DNA of 64,000 bases from Mugil cephalus (Eukaryota > Chordata > Actinopteri > Mugiliformes > Mugilidae): contig NC_061783.1 in NCBI RefSeq assembly GCF_022458985.1, positions 11,438,413-11,502,412 on the forward strand, written 5' to 3'. The notes below the pieces were generated by a model. That model did not search any database and was not told the DNA's origin. It saw only the letters and a program-made list of their open reading frames with translations. The translations under genes and the position numbers were made by a program. Shown here one piece after another: positions 6,029 through 63,116 of the stretch. Position 1 is the stretch's first letter. Each line of letters begins with the position of its first letter.

Positions 6029-6742
6029 TCCCGCCTAACTGCCCCGACAGCTCAGGGGGGCTGCCGAGACTAGAAACCAAGAGGCCTGAATAGATGCTCA
6101 CCGGGCTCTCTCTCTCTCCCTCTCTCTCTCTCTGCCTCCTGTTTATTATATGTAGGGCAAACATCTGTTCTTCAACACTAGTTGAGGTCACGGTCTCTTA
6201 TCCTCACTTACATGTGAAATATTAGAAAAGTCCCATCAAACTAACCGGTCACAGGGGGAATCAGAAAAAAACAAGAGAAAAGCTGTGTGGGTCTTTTTTG
6301 CGTGTGGCAGCAGTGTGGCAGTACCTGGGGAGGCACCTTATACCGCTGCCCCTGCCTGCACTGTACATGTATTCAGCGATAATGAGGCTAATAGGTGAAA
6401 ATATTGAGAATACTCATAAAAACAGGTGGGGGGTACACAGGGTTCATTGCGCGCACATTCAAACACAGTGCGTGTGTGTGTGTGTGTGCGTATGTGTGTC
6501 TGAACATCACTATTTAAGGTCCAACCACACACGCTGCATGCCACAGTAAAGCCCAGATGACCCAGTAACACGAGCCCCGTTCGGTAACATCAATGAGGTT
6601 AATGTAAAAAAAAAAAATAAAAGATTTAAAAAAAAAAAACTCGAAAAAATAAGCCAGATGTGCGCAGCTGGCTGAGATGACAGTAAGCACATTTTTTTTT
6701 TTTTTTGGTGTTTTGTACATAAGACGCAGCACGCGCACTCAC

Positions 6743-59564: not shown

Positions 59565-62500
59565 TTATGCATAAAACTCCTCCTGCTTGTCTGGTTTCTG
59601 GTAGGTGACCGTGGCCTGTTTGGGTTCCTCCAGCGTGTAGCTGCCCTCGTCCTTCTTCTTCATCCTGTACACCAGCAGCATCACCAGGAAGGCGGCGAAC
59701 AAGGCGCCCACCACGCCCCCAACTATCACCGCTGGAACAAAACAAGAAACAGAACGTTAGAAGTTTCCCATTTACCCGCGAAGCGGAAGCTACAGACGCT
59801 ACGAACAAACACTAAAATGCCATTAGAGCCACTCGCACGTCCTGGGGGAGACTACAACACCTCACACGCCGCTTTAAAAAGGAGTCTGGAAGCAAGTCTA
59901 CTACAGCATCACTATCACCTGGCTGCTAAGTGAAGACTGATGAGCGTGAACGTGCCAACATTACATTCGGTGCTGCCAGCAGCTTTGTGATAAACTGCAG
60001 CCCTGCAGTGTCACATAGGGGTTTAACGCGTTTATCCATCTCCTCTCTGTTTCGTTTCGCCAATAAACTCAACAGATAAGTGTGCGGGTGCCCTCACTCG
60101 ATGAGTAAGCGACTTGCACTGATGCAGATGTAGCCAGCAAGTTATTTGAGGTTAGACAACCCTTCACTGTAAGGGTTTCTGACTTGTTGCACCACGTTTT
60201 GTAATTGAATTTCACACATAACTCCAACAAGTTTAGTCTAATCATGTAGAGTATGACTAAGTGCATTTACCATTTGCTTTTACAGTGTGATACTGGAGAA
60301 TATTAGTCAGTCCACATGTTCGCTGGAGTCCTTGATTAGAATTTACTTGACACTTTAGTTTATAACCAAGTACCTGCAAATATTTAGGACGTTCCCTTCA
60401 GCCTCAGCTGCGCTGTAGGGTTAGCATTAAGCTCAAAGCCCCCGCGGTTTTTGTAGCCTCCGAATAGTTAAACTACAGAGACATTTTTGGAGGTGAAATG
60501 CAGAACTGAAGTTTCTGATTAAAGGAATAAGACAGGAACGCAGTCCGGGAACTTGTTCTGCCCACAGAATATGCACAGCACTAGCTCTGAATCTATGAGC
60601 CCCGGTGGTTTGTGATTCACTTCTAACACACACTCTAGTCTAAATTCTGTTGCCTCCTGCTCTTTACCGATAACCAGGAAATCGGCGAAAACCAGGGCCA
60701 CCAGTCCTCCAATCAGAACAGCTGAAGGAGAGACAGAGAGCCAGTCAGGTCAGGCAAGTTGGCTGCTCCCTCACTTTCTACAGCAGCTCTTTGGGATGGG
60801 GAGAAGAGGGCACTTGAAAAGAAATTGGATTTACCCGGAGGGGTGGGGGGGTGAGGGGAGAGAAAAGAGGGTAGAGAGGAGAGGAGGGGTTGGATAACCC
60901 AAGAGGAGGATTGCTTGTTCTCAATGGGTCAAACGGGGCTAAGTAGCACATTCACTTATGGTGATGAATCTGCACCATGTGAATGGCTGTTTATCCGAGC
61001 AGCTCCCAGAAAGCAGGGCGAGCGTGCAGGAGGCAACGGGAAACGTTGTGTCAATCTAAAATGCGATTACCAAGTGATTTATGTGAGAGAACGGCAGAAT
61101 GACAGAGGACGCGATCAGGCAAAAATCCAGACCTGAACGCCAGAACCGGAACTTGTACTGACAGACACTCTTACCTATCAAAACCTCTTTTCTCTCCAGG
61201 ATGTTCTTCTGAGGCAGCTGAGCAGCAGAGCTTCCTCCGTCCACCGTGTTACCGCTCAGATCGGGATCCACTGGCATTAAACCTCGGCCGAGACCATTGC
61301 GGCGATCCTCGCGGATTTCGAAATCTCCGCTCGGTCCCACGGCTCCCACCTCATTGTTGCTCTCCTGAGACAGGGGAAGAAATGTGAGACTAATGACGGG
61401 AAATTTACATTTGGTCTAATCACATTGGTTCCACAGAGTGGCCGCACTGAAATGTTTCCAAACCAACGCAGAGAACTTTCCATGGCACAAGTTTGCCTTT
61501 TAAACAATGGGCCAGTGTGTGCTCTGATTGGTGGAAAGTTGCATATTGTCCAACACATATACACACTTCATAACATCTGGCAGCTTAATTACTATGAGGG
61601 GAAACTGGGGAAAATCTAAACGCATTGAGCTTTAATGCCGAGCTGCTGCAGATAAACAGAAGCACGCCAATCAGGGAAGTGACTCTGCTCTGTAAATAAT
61701 TAAGCTGTCAGTGTAAAAGAAGCAGTCAGGAAAAGAGCTGAGCATCAGACCTCAACGCTTTATTGGTAATGGCAGAAATTAGTCCATTAGTATGAAGTAT
61801 TAAATAAGCTAGTGTGTGAATCCTTAGTCAAACTTATGACTGCTTGTTATTCACATTTATCCTCATTGTTATTTCAGAATTCACGTACAGCTGCTTGTGT
61901 TTAGACATCGTTCAAATATGAGGGCTGGGAATGGTAATTACTGGACTTGATGCGGACATGGCATGTAAGTGTTTTCATGGGATTTGGAATAACATTTGAG
62001 AACAGTTGCTTCTCATGATGAAGTCCAGATGCGATGAACCCAGCTTAGAAGAGACTGAGCAGTTGGAAACTGTTCTACCATTAGCTCTAAAACTATTAAC
62101 ATGTTATTTTCCTCATTTTCTTTAATTGGAACAGGAGTGGCACATCATCCTTTCTGGGGAAGAGCAGTGGTGTTTTTGACGTCACTTCCGTCTTCTTGCA
62201 GCTTTGTGTTTTCTTGCAGTGAGTGATGAGGACAAACCCTGTCCCCGGATGACTCCTACCTGTGTTGCCGTGGGCTGCTGTGGTCGTGTCGTTCTCTCTG
62301 TCGGCGCCGCCTGAGTGGCTGTTGTCATGGGAACCCTGGGCCTGAACGGGACCCTGGTCTTTGCGGTGGTGACGGCCGAGGTGGTCGTCGTGGTAGGTGC
62401 GGCTGTCGTAGGCTCAGGGGTGGCCTCTGCTGCGGTGGCCGCGTCTTCTTCTGTGGTGGTTTCTATGTCCGGGTAAACCAGGGAGGGCGTGGTCGACAGG

Positions 62501-63116
62501 TAGATGTCATCTACGTCTTCTTCTTCTGTGGTGCTCAGGTCGTCTGAACCCGCAGAGGGTGCCGCGCTTTCCACGGGACTGGTTGCCGGGTTGGTGGTCA
62601 CCACGGGAACGGCTTCAGGTGACCGCGGGGTCGCGGTGGTCTGCGCCGCCGCCCTGATCCGCTCCAGCTCTCTCTCCCTTTCGAGCTCCCTCTCTCTTTG
62701 CCTTTCTCTCTCCCTCTCCCGCTCTCTCTCCCTCTCCCTCTCTCGCTCACGTTCTCTCTCCCTCTCCCTCTCCCTCTCCATCTCTCTGACCCGCTCCCTC
62801 TCCCTCTCCCTTTCTCTCTCCCTCTCCAACTGCCTCTCCCTTTCCTTCTCCCTCTCCAGCTCCATCTGTCTCTCCTTCTCCAGCTCTCGTTCTCTCTCCA
62901 GCTCCCTCTCCCTCTCATAGAATGCACCGCTCTCTCCGTCAGCCTCGGTGGTCGGCGGCGTGGAGGTGACGTCGTCCGGGCTGGGGCTGGGGCTGGGCTC
63001 GGCTGCGGGTGAGGCGGAGGGGGCGGGGCTAGTGGCCTGGGTCGTGGAGAGGAGGAGGGTCTCCTCCGTGGTGAAGGCCACGCCCAAAGACGTCGGCCTC
63101 ACGCTGATCTCAGGAA
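59565..63116 (-). CDS. sdc3: Syndecan 3, 3' part (partial gene)
   Basis: Type I membrane heparan-sulfate proteoglycan and co-receptor of growing axons and muscle. Exons in view: 62260-63116, 61175-61364, an optional 60668-60721, and 59565-59731. Without the optional exon this gives 403 codons and a stop, open at the 5' end. Seen: a Thr/Ser/Pro-rich mucin-like ectodomain as in syndecan 3; a glycosaminoglycan-type PSGDFE; the juxtamembrane stretch [19 protein letters not shown]; the transmembrane [11 protein letters not shown] with the GxxxG-type dimer motif; and the tail [19 protein letters not shown]...EEFYA with the C1 region and PDZ-binding EFYA. The tail and [13 protein letters not shown] specify syndecan 3 among the four. 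The signal peptide and N-terminal SGSG attachment exons must lie above 64000. Odd: a long Glu/Arg repeat in the ectodomain and a second transmembrane-like exon. Confidence 0.95.
60668..60721 (-). other. sdc3: Duplicated transmembrane cassette exon of sdc3
   Basis: 54 nt, phase 1 at both ends. The acceptor CTCTCTGTCTCTCCTTCAG is very strong and the donor is TTATCG|GTAAAG. Reading from the same split codon as the constitutive next exon it encodes [18 protein letters not shown]. The first 18 codons of exon 59565-59731 encode [18 protein letters not shown]. Ten of 18 residues agree and the DNA is alignable without gaps, so this is a tandem copy of the membrane-spanning exon start. Inclusion would keep the frame and add 18 hydrophobic residues before the normal transmembrane helix. 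It has no stop codon. Use is unproven. Confidence 0.6.
62658..62916 (-). repeat. sdc3: In-frame Glu/Arg repeat tract in sdc3 ectodomain
   Basis: About 86 codons made almost only of GAG/AGG-type Glu and Arg codons with a few Leu, Met, Gln, Lys and Val, encoded by a (GAGAGG)n hexanucleotide repeat (CCTCTC on the plus strand). The frame stays open. Such ER-rich runs usually form a rigid single alpha-helix, unlike the disordered Thr/Pro-rich sequence on both sides. Confidence 0.9.

Follow-up and report, generated by a model that had tools for sequence, protein, structure and literature searches.

Can a syndecan carry a second, alternative piece of its transmembrane helix? The question is raised by a 54-nt block on the minus strand of the 64,000-nt stretch of Mugil cephalus DNA analysed here (the window), which holds a syndecan gene at its 3′ portion and belongs to contig C14 of a 635-Mb assembly in 24 contigs. 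Syndecans are described as having a single transmembrane helix. SDC4, for example, is so described in an excerpt of one study (PMC10708377). An earlier note on this DNA had read the block as a duplicated, phase-compatible membrane exon of syndecan 3 and had known of no alternative transmembrane exon in the family; at the level of titles and abstracts, none of the literature matches listed describes a syndecan whose transmembrane exon is duplicated or has an alternative. Our short answer is that, judged from its sequence, the block is a real duplicated membrane exon that is structurally capable of in-frame inclusion, that its use by the animal falls somewhat under even odds, and that the odds of a regulated function are lower still.

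It is helpful to begin with the normal gene, which is probably syndecan-3 (sdc3) to judge by its juxtamembrane and tail sequence; this provisional name goes by a juxtamembrane stretch of 13 residues and a tail of 20 residues, both present in the translation, and the labels sdc2-like and sdc4-like used below, which presumably hold on the same footing, go by tail sequence as well. Its exons read in the window are as follows.

Positions 62260 to 63116, minus strand: ectodomain exon (here exon 3), 857 nt, phase 1 in and phase 0 out, delimited by its open frame and the splice sites CTCCAG/TT and CAG/GTAGGA.
Positions 61175 to 61364, minus strand: juxtamembrane exon (exon 4), 190 nt, ending in ILERKEVLI plus a G, phase 1 out; the Pfam Syndecan match starts here.
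Positions 59565 to 59731, minus strand: canonical last coding exon, with the transmembrane helix, RMKKK and the cytoplasmic tail ending in EEFYA; TAA stop at 59565.

Joined, exon 4 and the canonical last exon match Pfam Syndecan (PF01034) with an E-value of 1e-32 and 112.3 bits, where the cut-off is 25.2, and hold both the transmembrane and the conserved cytoplasmic domain of that family, while the nearest solved chain for the canonical exon is the syndecan-2 helix of PDB 6ith (6ith_A, 2.1e-9). The canonical exon is like those of vertebrate syndecan-3 and of the syndecan family as a whole (PF01034, 6ith), with its single helix, its GGxx motif and its end; what differs here is that a second, diverged helix-coding block lies ahead of the normal one.

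Two other features of the gene can be recorded in passing. The ectodomain exon contains a long Glu/Arg-rich, low-complexity stretch (window 62668-62916, minus strand), which is unlike the remainder of the exon and forms a tandem-repeat array of 249 nt, or about 80 residues. Just past the window end (L018, about position 6112, reverse strand), upstream of the ectodomain exon, lies DLYSGSGSG, which resembles a glycosaminoglycan-attachment site and may be sdc3 exon 2.

The block itself, and the elements around it, are these.

Positions 60722 to 60781, minus strand: acceptor region of the copy, with a branch-point-like CTGAC about 24 nt before the exon (placed by eye), a pyrimidine tract and TTCAG.
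Positions 60668 to 60721, minus strand: duplicated transmembrane exon, a candidate cassette exon of 54 nt, phase 1/1, encoding 18 residues.
Positions 60662 to 60670, minus strand: donor of the copy, TCG/GTAAAG, 3.69 bits, moderate, with A at +5.
Positions 60519 to 60667, minus strand: open read-through, translated solely on retention of the last intron, beginning with a 13-residue stretch and ending in VPVLFL and a stop.

Is the block truly related to the membrane exon? Here the evidence is strong. The 18 residues of the copy agree with the first 18 of the canonical exon at 10 positions, and the nucleotides at 35 of 54, for a BLOSUM62 score of 53 where the canonical segment scores 83 against itself. 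When all six frames of the window are scanned with these 18 canonical residues, the copy comes second, directly after the exon itself, and the next match listed scores 26. A score of 53 is reached by 0 of 200 windows simulated with a first-order Markov model (best 36) and by 0 of 100000 residue shuffles of the copy (best 49). The homology of the block at 60721-60668 with codons 1 to 18 of the terminal transmembrane and tail exon is, on the sequence, genuine and far above chance. The earlier note was right about the placement between the juxtamembrane and transmembrane exons, with exon edges at 61175, 60721-60668 and 59731 and phase 1/1, about the descent from the start of the membrane exon, and about the frame, which by translation is kept on both inclusion and skipping. 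The copy and the original form an adjacent, homologous pair that is entered in phase 1 in both cases and separated by a 936-nt intron, if the copy is an exon, as we infer. The copy preserves the helix residues Phe12 and Phe15, one Asp interrupts the hydrophobic stretch, and the GGVVG of the canonical helix has become GGLVA, so that, as had been noted, the second Gly of GGxxG is replaced by Ala and the GxxxG dimer motif is lost, with a small-xxx-small motif still present. In profile searches without the canonical exon, exon 4, copy and read-through tail together give 20.3 bits over residues 54-81, which is below the 25.2-bit gathering score and comes partly from exon 4; the inclusion form contains two stretches matching Pfam Syndecan and scores 114.2 bits, the skipped form 112.3.

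Where did the copy come from, and how far did the duplication reach? Aligned exon against exon, none of 1000 shuffles does as well, but the 60-nt flanks, each tested alone, align at shuffle level (671 of 1000 shuffles as good upstream, 759 of 1000 downstream). A gapped local alignment does extend into the acceptor region (score 47), which means that the acceptor may also have been copied; a larger duplication, which this alignment might have indicated, was set aside because the flanks alone are at shuffle level. These comparisons are compatible with a duplication that stopped close to the edges of the exon and equally with flanks that have changed beyond recognition on either side of a retained exon, and the latter would imply selection. 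A 301-base DNA query spanning the block has a single match in the 635-Mb genome, the block itself, and a protein search of the same genome with the end of exon 4 plus the copy likewise returns only itself, although this second search is weak, since it failed to return the canonical exon. A genome search with the canonical exon as protein gave 10 matches, and the four best after itself, namely C14 at 17.47 Mb (sdc2-like), C11, C4 (sdc4-like) and C21, were compared as 9.9-kb stretches reaching 4.9-6.1 kb upstream of the exon; the other five (E 0.56 or worse) were left outside this comparison. In these stretches no comparable block is listed, in the sense of a score above 29 against the canonical helix or above 22 against the copy, the exons themselves aside. 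In bases shared with canonical sdc3, out of 54, the copy has 35, sdc2-like 36, sdc4-like 35, C11 32 and C21 26; in bases shared with the copy, canonical sdc3 has 35, sdc2-like and C11 31 each, sdc4-like 28 and C21 22. Being closest to the exon of its own gene, the copy most likely descends from that exon, and would be either old and constrained or younger and fast-evolving. As for more distant relatives, viral contigs yielded none (40 pattern stretches, 0 confirmed), and the search of genome contigs gave one weak bacterial match (38% identity over query residues 12-56).

Besides the sdc2-like and sdc4-like exons, C11 and C21 carry two further syndecan-like terminal exons, that on C21 being distant (41% identity over residues 1-51). 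According to the excerpt of one study available to us, syndecan-1 is missing from bony fish, in which there are three core proteins (PMC8061687); the present genome shows, besides the exon in the window, four others homologous to it.

Could the copy be spliced? Splice sites were scored with hand-entered frequency matrices, and the two ends of the block fare rather differently. The acceptor scores 11.68 bits, close to the 12.20 of the canonical acceptor and equalled by 0.43% of 8656 AGs on both strands, whereas the donor, at 3.69 bits, is equalled by 12.5% of 8039 GTs and compares with 8.97 for the donor of exon 4. Moreover, among the GTs between 60725 and 60480, two that are out of phase score slightly above it (3.82 after 60634, 3.90 after 60621) and would break the frame if used, and the in-phase GT after 60632 (3.63, giving a 90-nt exon) practically equals it, with another after 60566 being weaker (1.84). 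The description of both splice sites as strong thus holds for the acceptor and has to be softened for the donor. A donor this good is found at 0.79% of positions, and since the canonical exon has no GT at the corresponding place, the copy's donor was gained. If acceptors of at least 11.6 bits (39 in the window, both strands) are paired with donors 30-200 nt away, and the length must be divisible by three, six pairs are open in phase 1, and the copy is the sole hydrophobic one among them (mean Kyte-Doolittle over 1.6). The two flanking introns contain no RBFOX-type GCATG; TCTCTC occurs at three places upstream of the copy and none downstream, these being raw counts.

Our tentative preference, which falls a shade short of an even bet and is drawn from the sequence features above, is that the block is a tandem-duplicated cassette exon that would add 18 residues before the normal helix, with the canonical segment staying the membrane span. 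A tandem duplication would have copied the first 54 nt of the sdc3 terminal exon, and perhaps the acceptor region too; the new copy would then have acquired an in-phase donor and so become a candidate cassette exon. Most transcripts would in all likelihood skip it, with a minority, perhaps confined to certain tissues, taking it in. Insertion is all that is open to it and it cannot replace the original, because the tail and the normal stop lie in the canonical exon, and for this reason a mutually exclusive, substituting pair was rejected. The splicing and everything after it we infer. On inclusion, 18 residues would follow the juxtamembrane exon before the normal helix begins; they amount to 5.0 helical turns, and five full turns would keep the helix register. 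By translation, the 48-residue inclusion form around the junction has a hydrophobic run of 43 residues with one Asp, against 25 in the skipped form, in good agreement with the earlier estimate of about 40, and such a run is an awkward span. In a hydropathy scan (with a homemade weighting of the scale) the best canonical window scores -1.47 and the best window of the copy -0.55. Under the positive-inside rule, a basic cluster such as RMKKK favours the cytosolic side, and the canonical segment, being more hydrophobic and having this cluster behind it, should remain the span, with the copy a hydrophobic extension ahead of it. The copy's Asp would then sit five residues before the span, near the position of the Glu in the skipped form (ADFLVI-AVIV as compared with KEVLI-AVIV), and inclusion would put more distance between the membrane surface and both the juxtamembrane shedding region and the heparan sulfate ectodomain, and would add a GxxxA/Phe packing face. 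In the excerpt of PMC8347082 available to us, dimerisation through transmembrane GxxxG is called important for the function of syndecans, and GxxxG, together with a nearby Phe in syndecan-2, is reported to support that dimerisation. Altered dimer packing, shedding or delivery of the inclusion isoform may be the outcome. The boldest form of this idea, namely that in teleost sdc3 a regulated cassette exon inserts a homologous 18-residue, five-turn segment before the helix and that splicing thereby tunes dimerisation and ectodomain shedding, we consider unlikely. In short, the duplicated, phase-compatible membrane exon of the earlier interpretation survives, and its isoform with altered insertion, dimerisation or shedding has to be held more loosely, given a moderate donor that is not unique and weak indications of selection.

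The most serious competitor is a relic, that is, a lineage-specific exon duplicate that evolves neutrally, is rarely or never spliced and makes no functional protein; we think this possible, with a chance that lies clearly below one half. The moderate donor with its equal or slightly better neighbours would fit such decay, as would the Asp within the helix, the Gly-to-Ala change in GGxxG and the lower third-position G/C, which stands at 16 of 18 codons in the canonical segment and 10 of 18 in the copy. Selection was approached in two ways. Differences between the copy and the canonical segment fall 5:3:10 over the three codon positions, and over the 18 codons the pair gives dN/dS of 0.32/0.82 (NG86), 0.38/0.96 (LWL85) and 0.38/0.61 (YN00), ratios that range from 0.39 (NG86, LWL85) to 0.62 (YN00). 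If the canonical syndecan-3 helix is nearly invariant, nearly all the replacements belong to the branch leading to the copy, for which dN/dS would come to roughly 0.8-1.2, near neutral, as a relic would have it. We also simulated neutral evolution of the copy to the observed divergence and counted the runs that reached the observed score with an open frame. With all changes on the copy 0.2% of 50000 runs did so, and with 3, 5 and 7 synonymous changes on the canonical side the fraction rose to 0.9%, 2.4% and 6.8% (20000 runs each), the last figure being one that a relic could live with. The summed hydrophobicity was reached by 2.3%, 3.3%, 4.2% and 6.3% of neutral copies (0, 3, 5 and 7 canonical-side synonymous changes). 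The 10/18 identity alone was reached by 9.7% (all changes on the copy), which is not significant, and since merely 14-19% of neutral copies gained a stop, an open frame over 18 codons says little. Against decay stand the intact acceptor, the end of homology at a usable in-phase donor with flanks that show no detectable homology on their own, and the conservative character of the replacements, the BLOSUM score of 53 being set against a neutral mean of 27.6. Taken together, these data suggest constraint on the copy with modest force, and it is because the evidence for selection is modest that the decaying relic has to be taken seriously.

Two further readings accept the exon and differ in what it would make. 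In the first, the copy itself would become the membrane helix and the canonical segment would be re-entrant or retained, so that the isoform is misfolded, held in the ER or of dual topology, with less syndecan-3 at the surface. Both segments are insertable by the hydropathy scan, and the copy leaves the ribosome first; however, the RMKKK that follows the canonical segment, and the better score of that segment, favour the canonical span, and we regard this exchange of spans as quite improbable. The second, which we hold to be very improbable, is the tail-less syndecan-3 of the earlier note, in which the copy and the retained last intron are read to a stop. The frame is indeed open to 60519, as had been claimed, and retention of a last intron leaves no downstream junction to trigger decay. 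In the retained intron, however, a search for nine poly(A) hexamers (60667-59732) found neither AATAAA nor ATTAAA and only three weak variants (AGTAAA, TATAAA, GATAAA), and the tail has no RMKKK, the basic stop-transfer cluster of the normal protein. An intron-retained form could of course still employ the normal poly(A) site. The read-through tail was also considered as a homologue of the normal tail and rejected, no significant similarity being seen (525 of 1000 shuffles as good). Finally, an assembly artefact or a chance open frame, for which we found no supporting point, can be dismissed almost entirely, since 35% nucleotide divergence from the canonical exon does not agree with one exon assembled twice, the 301-nt query matches itself alone and a score of 53 excludes chance.

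How does a cassette exon of this kind, our preferred reading, compare with known systems? Tandem duplicated exon substitution events, as described in the portion of PMC9741552 available to us, concern mutually exclusive homologous exons, and they are alike in that homologous neighbouring exons arise through tandem duplication. They differ in that here part of a terminal exon has been copied and only insertion would be feasible. The word 'syndecan' has no occurrence in the main text of that paper, in which a whole-word search for 'SDC' would miss 'SDC3'. In the horse CEACAM1 paralogues (PMC5856374), to go by the title and the start of the abstract, alternative splicing is paired with transmembrane exons, whereas in our case a homologous copy would lengthen the hydrophobic segment.

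What, then, would the finding mean for the syndecans? If the copy is spliced, it would provide a natural experiment, confined to one exon, on the way in which syndecan output is set by helix length, by dimer packing and by how far the shedding region lies from the membrane, and a case in which partial duplication of a terminal exon gives rise to insertion and not to substitution. If it is a relic, it would show cleanly the decay of a membrane exon that had been duplicated.
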